Source of the DNA: Phycisphaerales bacterium
GTDB lineage: Bacteria; Planctomycetota; Phycisphaerae; Phycisphaerales; SM1A02
Assembly: GCA_014238125.1 (NCBI GenBank)
Contig: JABABS010000094.1
Coordinates: forward strand, 40,371-104,370
Reading direction: 5' to 3'
Length of the DNA: 64,000 nt
Positions 26,332 through 36,883 of this stretch are shown here, in pieces. A program made the translations under genes and the position numbers. Within the stretch, counting starts at the first letter, position 1; every line of letters begins with the position of its first letter. Under the pieces are notes generated by a model. That model was not told the DNA's origin. It did not search any database and was given only the letters and a program-made list of their open reading frames with translations.

Positions 26332-27435
26332 ATGAAAAAACACTTGAAATGGTTGATGGAAATTACAGCAATCCCAACAGCGGCTGGGCAAGAGTGGCGA
26401 GTCATAGACTGGATTGAGAAATGGGTAATAAAGCAATCTGGCATCACTTTGAACAATGACCAGTTTGGCAATCTCCTTCTCACCCAAACTCGCAAATCCT
26501 CAAAGAAGCCCATTTATATCACAGCTCACCTCGATCACCCAGCGTTTGTGGTTCGAGAACAAATTGACGAAAAACATATTGAATTGGATTTTAGAGGTGG
26601 CGTAAATGACGCTTATTTTGTCGGAGCAAAAATTGAAGTCTTCGACAACAACGACAATAGTTATTTTGGAATAATCGAATCGCTCGATGCTAAAGCAAAA
26701 CCATTTAAACGAGTTGTTGCCAAACTACAAAAAAGCGTTGCGGGTTTTTTGCTCAAGGGCGATGTTGCAAGGTGGCGTTTTAATCCACCCATTGTAAAAG
26801 GCGATTTGCTTCATGCACCCGCATGCGATGATCTCGCAGGCGTTGCCGCTGCGATTTCAGCGTTAGATAATATCAAATCCCTACGGGGTCTGGGTCATGT
26901 TGGTGTTTTGCTTACTCGCGCAGAAGAGATTGGATTTATCGGAGCAGTTGCTGCTGCAAAAAATAAAACCGTATCAAAATCATCAAGATTACTTTGCCTT
27001 GAAACATCACGGAGTTTTCCAGAATCTCCAATTGGGGCTGGTCCAATTCTTCGAGTTGGTGACAAAACAAGTGTCTTTGGTCCAGAGCTAACAAACGCAA
27101 TAGCTGAAATCATGAACACGCAAAAGAATTTTCCGTGGCAACGCAAACTTATGCCCGGTGGCACGTGCGAATCTACTGCATTTTGTAACTACGGATACCT
27201 CTCAACATGTTTGTGTCTTGCGCTTGGTAATTATCATAATATGCTTGACATGGATGGAGTTTTGCAAAAAAATAAGCCCGCGAAAGTCGCGCCTGAAATT
27301 ATTTCAGTGAACGACTATCACGGGCTTGTCAAAATGCTAACTGTTGTGTGCCGAGATCTCGATAAACCAAGACCAGCAACACTGCGACGCGGTTTAGAAA
27401 AACGACTCAACGCATACAGAAATATCCTTAATTAG
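26332..27435 (+). CDS. M42/M20-type metallopeptidase (aminopeptidase-like)
   Basis: ITAHLDHPAFVV, APACDDLAGVAAAISALD, LLTRAEEIGFIGAVAAA, CLETSRSFP; ends PGGTCESTAFCNYGYLSTCLCLALGNYHNM. Confidence 0.85.
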   Translation: MKKHLKWLMEITAIPTAAGQEWRVIDWIEKWVIKQSGITLNNDQFGNLLLTQTRKSSKKPIYITAHLDHPAFVVREQIDEKHIELDFRGGVNDAYFVGAKIEVFDNNDNSYFGIIESLDAKAKPFKRVVAKLQKSVAGFLLKGDVARWRFNPPIVKGDLLHAPACDDLAGVAAAISALDNIKSLRGLGHVGVLLTRAEEIGFIGAVAAAKNKTVSKSSRLLCLETSRSFPESPIGAGPILRVGDKTSVFGPELTNAIAEIMNTQKNFPWQRKLMPGGTCESTAFCNYGYLSTCLCLALGNYHNMLDMDGVLQKNKPAKVAPEIISVNDYHGLVKMLTVVCRDLDKPRPATLRRGLEKRLNAYRNILN

Positions 27436-28336
27436 AAACAACAAGTTCTATCATTAAATCTACGGCTTCTTCTTGCCTGTCAAGTTCTTGCAGTGTCTCG
27501 ATTGAAACGATGAGTGCAGCATTTCTGGAAGGTGAACCTTCGTCAGTTTGACTGATAATTCTTTCTAACGCCTTAATTCTATCTTCTGGTTCAAGTTCAT
27601 CTCTGATCATGCGAATACCAAACATTGACATTGAATGTGGTGTCATATAACTAGACACTTCATCAAGCATTGAAAGCTCTTCCATAAATTGATGTTCTTC
27701 AGAAATGTCGCGATCTTCTTTGTGTTCACGCCACTCACCACTCCATTCACCGTGTTCACCACCATCGTGCATCATGTGTTCACGCATGCCTTCAGGAGGA
27801 CCATCGCCACCATGCATCATTACCATCTTCGGATGACCGCCGCCTTCGCCGCGATCGCCCATCATTTTCATCATGTGCTCGCGCGTACCTGCAGGTGGAC
27901 CATCACCACCATGCATCATTACCATCTTCGGATGACCACCGCCTTCGCCGCGATCACCCATCATTTTCATCATGTGTTCACGCATACCTTCTGGTGGTCC
28001 CTCGCCGTCCATCATTTCCATCATGTACACGTGCGTGCCTTCGGGAAGACTACCTTCATCACCCATCATTTTCTCAATGTGTACTTCAATGGAATCGTCA
28101 CCATCACCAAAATCTATATTGTGCATCAACTCGGAAAGATCACCGATTGATCGTTCTTCCCCGTTGACCACCACAACAATTTCGCCATTATCTACTTTTA
28201 CACTTACGTCCATTTCAATTGGTTCGGATTGAGAGACTAAGGTTGCAGTTGTTTCAGTTGCTACTGTTTTGGTTTTTTTACATCCTCCAACAACAATAAT
28301 GGAGCCAACGGCAAGCGTGGTTAATATCATTTTCAT
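27428..28336 (-). CDS. Lipoprotein with Met/His/Gly-rich tandem repeats
   Basis: Signal and lipobox MKMILTTLAVGSIIVVGGC; repeats GPPEGMREHMMKMMGDRGEGGGHPKMVMMHGGD. Confidence 0.75.
   Translation of the reverse strand: MKMILTTLAVGSIIVVGGCKKTKTVATETTATLVSQSEPIEMDVSVKVDNGEIVVVVNGEERSIGDLSELMHNIDFGDGDDSIEVHIEKMMGDEGSLPEGTHVYMMEMMDGEGPPEGMREHMMKMMGDRGEGGGHPKMVMMHGGDGPPAGTREHMMKMMGDRGEGGGHPKMVMMHGGDGPPEGMREHMMHDGGEHGEWSGEWREHKEDRDISEEHQFMEELSMLDEVSSYMTPHSMSMFGIRMIRDELEPEDRIKALERIISQTDEGSPSRNAALIVSIETLQELDRQEEAVDLMIELVVSN
27767..28048 (-). repeat. In-frame 99-bp tandem repeat (2 full plus partial copies) inside the lipoprotein gene
   Basis: Units of 33 codons at about 27902-28000 and 27803-27901, plus partial flanking copies. 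Confidence 0.85.
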
Positions 28337-28407
28337 TTCATTTTTCCTTAATTTGGGTTAATAGAAGACAGAGCAATATAACAACAAAATGAAAAAATTA
28401 TTTCGAT

Positions 28408-29679
28408 TTATTCTTCGCGAAGTGAATACGCAATAGAAATGCGGTTTATCTGAGTTGCAGAAGCCTCAAGTGTCGTAAAACGCTTCGCGAATGCTTCAAG
28501 AACTTCACCCACTTCTGGAACATGACCGAGGTGAGCAAGGACAAAACCTGCGAGCGTGTCATACTCTTCGTCTTCAGGAAGTTCCCAAGAAAGTTCGTCA
28601 TTCAAATCGTCTATGTTATACCGTCCATCAACTTCAACGAGACCGTCATTTACTCTCACGAGTTTCGGTTCATCCGGCTCAGCGTCATCGTGTTCATCTC
28701 GAATTTCACCGACAATTTCCTCAATGACATCTTCAATTGTCACAATGCCAGCAGTTCCGCCGTACTCGTCGATCACCACTGCCATGTGAACTTCGCTTCG
28801 TTGAAAGTCACCCAACAGTTCTTGCACAGGTTTTGTATCTGGAACAACAATTGGTTGACGTAAAATAGAAAGCAAGTTAAAACTTTCATCTTCCTCGCCA
28901 AAAAACGCAACCAAATCTTTCACGTATAAAATCCCAAGAATATGATCAATGTTTTCTTCATACACAGGAATTCGAGATCTACCTGACTCCAAAACAATTT
29001 TTCGGATCTCATGCAAATCATCTGTGTGTTCGATGCCTTCGACATCAGTTCTAGGAGTCATAATTTCACCAACATCAGTCGTGCGAAACTCGACTACATT
29101 TTCTAACATTTCTGCCGCTTTAGCTGGAATGCCACCTTCTCGCTGCGAGTGTTCAATCGATTTTAATAATTGTTCTTCAACATCTGTCGAACCATTTTGC
29201 TGTGCCAAATTTGCACCAGTTAAACGCCTTACGATTTCACCAATCACTGCAATTGGAACTCTCGCAAGTCCACCAAGAACCATTGACAATCGCACCAACC
29301 ACCAACTCCTGCAAACTGTTCCAGCTGGGACAGCTGCAGCAATCGCACCGCCAATAACAGATGCACAAACCCATAAAATTACTCCAGAAATTGCCAACGC
29401 TCCAACAACCAACCAGTAATCAACCAACTCAAAACCACCGAGCAAGCCTGTTACTGATGCAATCACCATGAGAAAACAAAAACCTCTTGCAAATGCGACA
29501 GATTGTGTCACAGCTTCATATTGAGACGAAAGCCACAGTGCACGGTTTGGCATTCCGCGAACTTCCATTTCGTGCCGAAGGCCAACTTGTGATGACATCA
29601 GCAACGATCGTTCTATCGCAGCAAGCCACGAAGCAAGTAATACAAACAAAACTAAAAGTATCCAAAGTGTTAAGGTCAT
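28408..29679 (-). CDS. CNNM/HlyC-CorC family membrane protein with CBS pair
   Basis: TTDVGEIMTPRTDVEGIEHTDDLHEIRKIVLESGRSRIPVYEENIDHILGILYVKDL; VHMAVVIDEYGGTAGIVTIEDVIEEIVGEI. Confidence 0.93.
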   Translation of the reverse strand: MTLTLWILLVLFVLLASWLAAIERSLLMSSQVGLRHEMEVRGMPNRALWLSSQYEAVTQSVAFARGFCFLMVIASVTGLLGGFELVDYWLVVGALAISGVILWVCASVIGGAIAAAVPAGTVCRSWWLVRLSMVLGGLARVPIAVIGEIVRRLTGANLAQQNGSTDVEEQLLKSIEHSQREGGIPAKAAEMLENVVEFRTTDVGEIMTPRTDVEGIEHTDDLHEIRKIVLESGRSRIPVYEENIDHILGILYVKDLVAFFGEEDESFNLLSILRQPIVVPDTKPVQELLGDFQRSEVHMAVVIDEYGGTAGIVTIEDVIEEIVGEIRDEHDDAEPDEPKLVRVNDGLVEVDGRYNIDDLNDELSWELPEDEEYDTLAGFVLAHLGHVPEVGEVLEAFAKRFTTLEASATQINRISIAYSLREE

Positions 29680-30149
29680 GTGCTATGACTCCAAACCACT
29701 CCTACACCAATTGCTTTTAATATTCGATCTTCTTCTTGATGCATTAGTTTGTGATCTTCTTCGTTGTGGTCATCAAACCCAGTGCAATGCAAAATGCCAT
29801 GCACGATGTACAACAACAGTTCGTTTTGCACAGAATGGTTTCTGTTTTTCGATTCACGCATCGCAACATCGAAACAAACTGCTAAATCAGCACGCACTGA
29901 TTGCTCGTCACTGCCATGATCAAAAGTTAACACATCAGTTGTACCTTCAACGCCAGAATGTTTAATATGCAATGTAGACATTTCTTCATCACAAACAACT
30001 CGCACTGACACTTCAGAATTTTGCCGATGTAAAAAATGCAAAACCTCCACCGTTTGCTCTTCAAGCCATTTGTATTCAATGTCAATATCACCGCCGACGG
30101 TGACAGTTGTCGGTGGAGGTTGGTCTATTTGTTCGTTTGACTCTTCCAT
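29676..30149 (-). CDS. ybeY: Endoribonuclease YbeY
   Basis: HGILHCTGFDDHNEEDHKLM (HxxxHxxGxDH motif). Confidence 0.9.
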   Translation of the reverse strand: MEESNEQIDQPPPTTVTVGGDIDIEYKWLEEQTVEVLHFLHRQNSEVSVRVVCDEEMSTLHIKHSGVEGTTDVLTFDHGSDEQSVRADLAVCFDVAMRESKNRNHSVQNELLLYIVHGILHCTGFDDHNEEDHKLMHQEEDRILKAIGVGVVWSHST

Positions 30150-35323: not shown

Positions 35324-36883
35324 CTACCAATAGGAGAGGAGTTGTAATAAATCGCTAATATCTACCACGCCATCGCCAGTGATGTCTTCAGGACAATCGA
35401 AACTACATGGTCCCCAACCAGAAAGTAGCATCAGCAAATCTTCAACATTAACTAAGCCATCGCCATTTACATCGCCTAGCACAGCGTCGGATTCTGGCAA
35501 TATCCAACCTACACTAAAAACCTTGGAACTGCCTGAAGAGGCACTGCGATTAACTTCAAGAACGTATTGTCCTATCGCAAGATTCTTTACATATAGATGC
35601 TCAACATTATCCACAGCACTCTCGCTTACAACGTTACCGTCAGAAAAAACGCTTAACCCTGAATTACCTGTAATGTCCACGAGTGAACTACCGTCAAATT
35701 TCCAGAGTAGTAAATCTAAATCAACTATTGAGTAACTTCCAAACCCACTATTCACGGTTTGATTCCAAGTAAGTACAACTGATACTTCATCTGCAGGAGA
35801 TATGACATCAAACAAAATATATTTGCTTTGGTTATTAGCAATAATCCCTGTATCCCAACCAGCGTGCGGTGCTGAAATCAAGTCGCTTAACGAAGTGCTT
35901 GAAGCATGTTGCCCGCTACTCATCACTTGCCAAGAGTTGTCTATATTTACCGTTCCCACACCAAGCATAGAATCTATAGGTTGACTTGTTCGACCACGGT
36001 TTGGGCCGGTTATTTCTGCATTATTTGTCCAAGCTGCTTCGTGTTTTCCACCCGTTAGCAATACAGCCTTGATTGTTTCCGAAAGTGTTGCAAAGTAATT
36101 TCCCGCAGTATTTGGGTGCGTGTCCGCTGTTTCAATAATCATGGATGTTACACCAGAAACAATACCAGTTGCGTCACTTGTTGTGCCTTGTACAGCAACG
36201 ATTAGTGGAATTTGGCAGCCCGACGTATCGTACCCGCTTGGAATTACTCCACCAATGTGACCTCCATCTGCTGTGCCAACACTCACACAATTAAAACCAA
36301 ACGACATCAACGGCGAGTGTTCACCGCTGTTGGCAACACCGTTCAACATCATCGCATTGCTAGAATCGATTGACCAATCAGCGCGTCTTAAAGCTTGGCT
36401 GTCAAGCGAAACACTGCCAAAGGAACCTATCCAACTGTTATTAAAGAGTGCAACATTTCCGGGAGGGCTTGCTGGATTAGCGCTTGAGCCAACATTCAAA
36501 AAAGTATTTTGCGCCCAACCTGCAGCAGAATAAACAAAAATCGTATCGGTTCCGGGTGCAATCCCATAACTCCCTGTTCCATAGATACGTTTTGCTACGT
36601 TTGTTGCATGATATGAAACACCCGAACTCCCATTCATGAGTGTAAATGATTTACCTGTAAACTCTGGTTGGGTTGGATCGGGTGCATATCCACCCGCTTC
36701 ATCTGCTTCAACTTGCGCGACTTCAACACCGGCACCCGTTGGTTCATTTCCAGCACCAAGCCTATCGATTAAATCAGTCAATCCGTGATTATCTTGTACA
36801 GGTCCAGCAAGTGCAGTAGTACAGACAAAACTGCTTACGACGATTGCACATATTTTTACGTGTGTTTTGAGCATACTTCTCAA
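35324..36883 (-). CDS. Secreted subtilisin-like (S8) protein with C-terminal dockerin-like repeat
   Basis: Signal peptide; VEVAQVEAD, HATNVAKRIYG and TSDATGIVSGVTSMI as candidate Asp/His/Ser boxes; C-terminal GDVNGDGLVNVEDLLMLLSGWGPC...DITGDGVVDISDLLQLLSYW. Confidence 0.75.
   Translation of the reverse strand: MRSMLKTHVKICAIVVSSFVCTTALAGPVQDNHGLTDLIDRLGAGNEPTGAGVEVAQVEADEAGGYAPDPTQPEFTGKSFTLMNGSSGVSYHATNVAKRIYGTGSYGIAPGTDTIFVYSAAGWAQNTFLNVGSSANPASPPGNVALFNNSWIGSFGSVSLDSQALRRADWSIDSSNAMMLNGVANSGEHSPLMSFGFNCVSVGTADGGHIGGVIPSGYDTSGCQIPLIVAVQGTTSDATGIVSGVTSMIIETADTHPNTAGNYFATLSETIKAVLLTGGKHEAAWTNNAEITGPNRGRTSQPIDSMLGVGTVNIDNSWQVMSSGQHASSTSLSDLISAPHAGWDTGIIANNQSKYILFDVISPADEVSVVLTWNQTVNSGFGSYSIVDLDLLLWKFDGSSLVDITGNSGLSVFSDGNVVSESAVDNVEHLYVKNLAIGQYVLEVNRSASSGSSKVFSVGWILPESDAVLGDVNGDGLVNVEDLLMLLSGWGPCSFDCPEDITGDGVVDISDLLQLLSYW

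Follow-up and report, generated by a model that had tools for sequence, protein, structure and literature searches.

The minus-strand open reading frame at positions 27428-28336 of a Phycisphaerales contig encodes a protein with Met/His-rich tandem repeats, which raises the question of whether this protein binds metal and, if so, which one. The original prediction proposed a lipoprotein whose repeats form a copper/silver-binding module. We analysed the gene in the window, the whole stretch of 64,000 nucleotides under study, and in related genomes. The features of the locus were as follows.

27428..28336, minus strand: lipoprotein gene, an ORF of 302 aa with orthologs at the same locus in 12 of 12 other genomes of the genus
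28280..28336, minus strand: signal peptide and lipobox ending at Cys19 (VVGG-C-KK), read from the sequence
28151..28207, minus strand: conserved N-terminal beta-hairpin around VSVKVDNGEIVVVVNGEERS, from the genus alignment and AlphaFold2 strands
28001..28048, minus strand: degenerate upstream copy of the repeat core, LPEGTHVYMMEMMDGE, from sequence comparison
27902..28000, minus strand: repeat copy 1, 33 aa, GPPEGMREHMMKMMGDRGEGGGHPKMVMMHGGD, from Tandem Repeats Finder and copy comparison
27803..27901, minus strand: repeat copy 2, 33 aa, GPPAGTREHMMKMMGDRGEGGGHPKMVMMHGGD, from Tandem Repeats Finder and copy comparison
27767..27802, minus strand: partial repeat copy 3, 12 aa, GPPEGMREHMMH, from copy comparison
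27431..27709, minus strand: conserved C-terminal domain of five helices, TPR-like, from alignments, AlphaFold2 and Foldseek
28408..29679, minus strand: corC/hlyC (CNNM-CBS-CorC; Pfam PF01595, PF00571, PF03471)
29676..30149, minus strand: ybeY, upstream of corC (Pfam PF02130)

Domain structure of the lipoprotein

The 302-aa protein consists, in order, of a signal peptide, a beta-hairpin, the Met/His-rich repeats and a C-terminal helical domain. The lipobox VVGGC occupies residues 15-19, and Cys19 was invariant in a nine-member alignment of the genus. Judged from its sequence, the product holds as a bacterial lipoprotein and is presumably lipidated; the members from genera g5 and g8 have an ordinary-looking signal peptide and no lipobox. 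The conserved hairpin segment reads MDVSVKVDNGEIVVVVNGEE, and its strands were modelled by AlphaFold2 with low to moderate confidence. The Met/His/Gly-rich middle covers aa 88-209. AlphaFold2 gave a pLDDT below 50 over residues 72-179, which is most of the middle, and placed one short helix there, over the core GMREHMMKMM; the middle is thus predicted to be disordered. A plus-strand ORF across the repeat (27689-28150) shows no sign of being a gene and merely shadows the repeat in another reading frame.

The C-terminal domain (aa 210-302) was modelled as five helices with a pLDDT of 92.2. Foldseek returned many TPR-like matches for it, including kinesin light chain (4y6w), Fis1 and BamD, with probabilities of 0.9-1.0, yet their E-values were 0.1 or worse and none was significant. 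The domain shares helix-turn-helix pairs with these TPR/alpha-solenoid proteins, but differs from them in its Foldseek E-values (>0.1) and in having no above-threshold Pfam TPR match; PF07721 appeared in 1 of 14 members, at E=0.014, below threshold. The domain could be a remote TPR or a solenoid of independent origin. Weak matches to influenza haemagglutinin helices were taken as noise from helical periodicity. Searches of Pfam, NCBIfam, PHROGs and PDB sequences assigned no family to the lipoprotein or to its C-terminal domain, and a literature search on Met-rich planctomycete lipoproteins found none. The gene belongs to an undescribed family.

The repeat copies are conserved at the protein level

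The repeat region (27767-28048) corresponds to codons 97-190 of the gene. Its tandem unit is 99 bp or 33 aa, exactly in frame, and is present in 2.36 copies plus one degraded copy. Tandem Repeats Finder reported an array at 27770-27997 (period 99, 2.3 copies, 89% matches) with a score of 386, by far the highest of the three arrays in the window. The ORF, this array and the composition relative to the window background confirm the predicted Met/His-rich 33-aa tandem repeats, and the repeat sequence quoted in the original prediction is copy 1.

The same prediction described the repeats as nearly identical at the DNA level, which proved too strong, as copies 1 and 2 are about 91% alike. Nine of 99 bases differ, with 7 synonymous changes in 19.2 silent sites and 2 non-synonymous changes in 79.8 replacement sites; the latter turn E into A and M into T in copy 2. 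When nine changes were placed at random in a simulated neutral model, a mean of 6.6 codons were replaced, and two or fewer were replaced with P=0.0005. The G009 ortholog has four 21-aa copies before its contig ends; they show silent variation at six codons and replacement at a single one (E/G/D), and no Met or His is altered. The repeats of the window are therefore conserved at the protein level, in a comparison that rests on few pairs and in which gene conversion can even out copies.

These results bear on the view that the middle has no ligand role. It would then be a flexible polar spacer from the lipid anchor to the helical domain, expanding freely by slippage, its composition reflecting weakly constrained ATG-rich repeats and the function residing in the TPR-like domain. 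We consider this view improbable. The copies keep their amino acids while silent sites change, and this mostly silent variation speaks against DNA slippage alone, unchecked by the protein.

Met and His are enriched in the middle region

We compared the Met/His content of the protein with that of window ORFs and of syntenic neighbours. Of the 122 residues of the middle, 24 are Met (20%) and 11 are His (9%), compared with 2.8% Met and 2.2% His in the 33 window ORFs that reach 250 aa. The richest 60-aa stretch of the lipoprotein holds 21 Met+His, and the maximum elsewhere among the window ORFs was 10. At the same loci in related genomes, the median richest stretch was 16 for the lipoprotein gene and 5-8 for nine neighbouring genes.

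Composition-preserving shuffles were used to assess spacing within the middle. MM doublets occurred 10 times against 4.6 expected (P=0.003), and MxxM was also above expectation (P=0.046). MxM showed no excess, and HxxM/MxxH was not enriched (5 against 4.3 expected). Much of the Met thus comes from ATGATG doublets, as the spacer view would have it. The pattern CAY-ATG-ATG-NNN-ATG has 2 of its 5 matches in the genome at the lipoprotein gene; in the genus it occurs beyond this gene, and among the matches listed it was in tandem at the lipoprotein locus only.

Such a Met-dense region could also act as an oxidant sink, absorbing reactive oxygen or chlorine species at the cell surface and being recycled by methionine sulfoxide reductase. 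The density of Met and its predicted exposure to solvent fit this idea, as does an MsrB-MsrA fusion in the genome, whose N-terminus is possibly a signal peptide; however, Msr is near-universal, being found in 12 of 14 control genomes. The idea is further weakened by the many orthologs, such as those of g47, in which His takes the place of Met, a swap that a Met sink leaves unexplained. We regard it as very unlikely. The fusion frame lies at L129:913-1977 (G000 contig C97).

The middle region is remade in each lineage

One genome per species was compared. Repeat units differ in length between species of the genus: the window has one of 33 aa, G009 and G001 have units of 21 aa, and those of G006 and G002 are about 25 and about 23 aa long. 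Most of these units share the core MREHMM. This core resembles a non-repeated motif of several orthologs, NGEEVDGLPEDMxxHVMQMI, which may be its source. The G012 ortholog has little of the repeat. The G010 ortholog keeps the fold, has no repeat and carries a His/Asp-rich C-terminal tail instead, and the G007 ortholog has both the Met/His-rich stretch and such a tail. These tails (L032:5527-6696 in G007 and L031:113-781 in G010, e.g. DHGHGPWEDDGHEHDDDDWDEHDHPHPHDHHDH) are absent in the rest of the genus.

Across genera, the richest 60-aa stretch holds 12-23 Met+His in g1 orthologs (contig fragments left out), and 15-27 in g5, g8, g47, g59 and g60. It reaches 10 in g53 and no more than 6-7 in g15 and g45, which keep the C-terminal domain. 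The balance is Met-led in most of g1 and His-led in g47, where there are 13-27 His per 60 aa and Met falls to 4-5 in two of three members. Conservation across genera is confined to the C-terminal domain. Met/His richness nevertheless recurs in most family-bearing genera, over a GC span of 42-65%, although the stretch cannot be aligned between them, indicating that composition is kept rather than sequence.

The hypervariable length, the separate repeat units per species, the missing repeat of G010, the low Met/His of g15 and g45 and the conservation of the C-terminal domain alone all favour a spacer, and because some orthologs have no Met/His stretch, a spacer with no ligand role is possible. 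Against it stands the recurrence of Met/His richness in most genera over this GC span, since neutral drift in a spacer would be expected to lead to the usual linker residues, such as Gly, Ser, Pro and Glu. The original prediction had named, as evidence against metal binding, homologs that retain the fold but lack the Met/His positions. Such homologs were found in part, namely in g15, in g45 and in G010, whose tail is itself His-rich.

Within the genus, tblastn identity to the window was 31-50% for the lipoprotein, 56-89% for CorC and 82-92% for NuoF, indicating that the lipoprotein evolves much faster than its surroundings. The assemblies of G003/G001, G008 and G009 break off inside or at the array, and that of G006 is interrupted there by an N gap, as would be expected if the arrays exceed the length of short reads. 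L037 (G001 contig C26) and L033 (G003 contig C101) share an identical lipoprotein stretch, FRDLGYEKFDEDRGMREHMMHLMESGMDFCPMMNGEHEGMREHMMH, at their broken ends; they probably represent a single locus broken in two, C26 having been placed in the G001 bin by mistake. At L028:5898-6894 (G006), the lipoprotein ORF lies in two frames around the N gap inside the repeat, which is likely an assembly or scaffolding error and not a broken gene.

The gene lies next to corC in most genomes

The corC gene lies directly upstream of the lipoprotein gene on the same strand, with a 71-bp gap. The lipoprotein gene was present in all 12 other genomes of the genus, always adjoined by corC and ybeY where the contig was readable, and it lay immediately downstream of ybeY-corC in 29 of the 31 genomes read, from 8 genera. 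The exceptions were G169 and G165 (genus g59), in which no corC was matched beside the gene. In genera lacking the lipoprotein gene, the position after corC holds unrelated genes, often one for an LptB-like ABC ATPase (names read from sequence); in Salmonella, this position after ybeY-corC is occupied by lnt (PMC12421838).

A profile of the C-terminal domain detected the family in 37 of 181 genomes and 9 of 45 genera of the taxonomic family, and in only three of 392 genomes in a sample of the phylum. The public records bearing it are metagenome-assembled genomes of Phycisphaerales/Planctomycetota, several with marine sample names. One of the three phylum-sample genomes, G057, belongs to another taxonomic family, and its relative has no Met/His-rich stretch, suggesting that the C-terminal domain may have a general envelope role. 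The gene for the G057 relative (L128:790-1755) directly follows that of a sigma factor and a frame that probably encodes an anti-sigma factor.

Within the genus, the gap (28337-28407) has in common a ribosome site of the AAGGA type and letters resembling GTTAT, which are suggestive but not decisive; a promoter of its own is possible for the lipoprotein gene. A promoter scan of the gap found one site against 0.5 expected. No metal-regulator site was recognised by eye upstream of the gene.

The constant CNNM-CBS-CorC neighbour makes a CorC-linked role a serious rival. The lipoprotein would be a divalent-cation accessory of CorC in the export or sensing of Mg, Co or related ions, and its flexible part, rich in acidic residues, His and Met, would trap ions beyond the membrane that are exported or in excess. 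The same-strand adjacency in 29 of 31 genomes, the replacement by unrelated genes after corC where the lipoprotein gene is missing and the His/Asp/Glu-richness of many orthologs all agree with such a role, and CorC-domain proteins have been tied to Mg2+ efflux and cobalt resistance (PMC12421838). However, the two g59 genomes have the gene without a matched corC, and the weakly conserved promoter-like letters in the gap mean that corC and the lipoprotein gene need not be co-transcribed. The ybeY-corC pair is an old general locus, so adjacency may reflect chromosomal position only. In addition, Met is a poor Mg ligand. We judge the accessory role unlikely.

A low-specificity metal sponge as the preferred reading

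The recurrence of Met/His richness in most family-bearing genera makes metal binding the most economical reading. Composition, recurrence and protein-level conservation make metal binding plausible, and the original interpretation is partly supported. Its copper/silver specificity was not borne out. No copper or silver efflux or sensor gene adjoins the lipoprotein gene (its neighbours are ybeY, corC, an M42 peptidase, ribBA and nuoDEF), the constant partner is corC, which is Mg/Co-linked, HxxM/MxxH stays at composition level, and other genera are His/Asp-rich instead of Met-rich. On other contigs, the genome encodes RND pumps and an HMA-domain P1B-ATPase of the CPC type, indicating that soft-metal handling probably exists, with no link to the lipoprotein gene.

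The best-supported explanation, to which we give an even chance of being right, is a low-specificity sponge for soft or borderline metals on a TPR-like envelope lipoprotein. The folded TPR-like domain would most likely dock on a partner or on the membrane surface, and the flexible middle would take up the ions, with MM and MxxM clusters taking Cu(I)/Ag(I) and His residues taking Cu(II), Ni, Zn or Co. In this way the middle would buffer the periplasm or present metal to a partner. Computation gives the anatomy, the repeats and their conservation as protein, the predicted disorder and folded domain, the family and the locus; what we infer is lipidation, the uptake of metal and which metal it is, docking, and any tie to CorC in function. 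The G010 ortholog without a repeat, the little repeat in G012, the low Met+His of g15 and g45, the G057 relative beside a sigma factor and without a Met/His stretch, the HxxM/MxxH frequency at composition level, and the adjacency of corC rather than a copper gene count against a sponge.

Known Met/His-rich proteins offer partial parallels. SilE is a disordered protein that folds upon Ag+ binding and also takes Cu2+, Zn2+ and Ni2+ (PMC5008109). Like SilE and PcoE, the Ag+/Cu+ sponges of the sil/pco operons, the lipoprotein is periplasmic, disordered by prediction and Met/His-rich with repeated motifs, and could form a helix, its predicted middle helix being MREHMMKMM. Unlike them, it has a lipobox, a folded TPR-like domain and Gly-rich spacers, lacks adjoining silver/copper genes, and has HxxM/MxxH spacing at composition level. 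CopM, a periplasmic Met/His-rich protein with 23 Met and 8 His in 196 aa, binds Cu(I) (PMC4335983). The lipoprotein resembles CopM/DUF305 proteins in being secreted and Met/His-rich, but has no DUF305 match, HH-motif domain or adjoining copper genes; Pfam, NCBIfam and PDB sequence searches gave no match to SilE/PcoE or DUF305. Like the inserts of CueO and CopI, its Met/His-dense segment is joined to a folded domain; here that domain is helical and matches neither cupredoxins nor oxidases.

Of greater interest is the family itself: its locus is fixed, its helical domain is conserved, and each lineage has remade the Met/His-rich region. A bolder proposal, which we hold to be doubtful, is a new envelope metal-handling family of Phycisphaerales, coupled to cation transport by CorC/CNNM, whose sponge capacity and metal preference (from Met-rich to His-rich) are retuned by lineage-specific repeat turnover. 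Should the protein bind metal, the family would be a metal sponge built on a scaffold not described before, in a marine phylum that has been little studied. It would also provide a natural series at one fixed locus (Met-rich, mixed, His-rich and none), in which capacity and selectivity are directly comparable, and a possible outer partner for CorC proteins.

Elsewhere in the window, positions 35324-36883 encode a secreted protein ending in dockerin-like repeats (GDVNGDGLVNVEDLLMLLSGWG ... DITGDGVVDISDLLQLLSYW).
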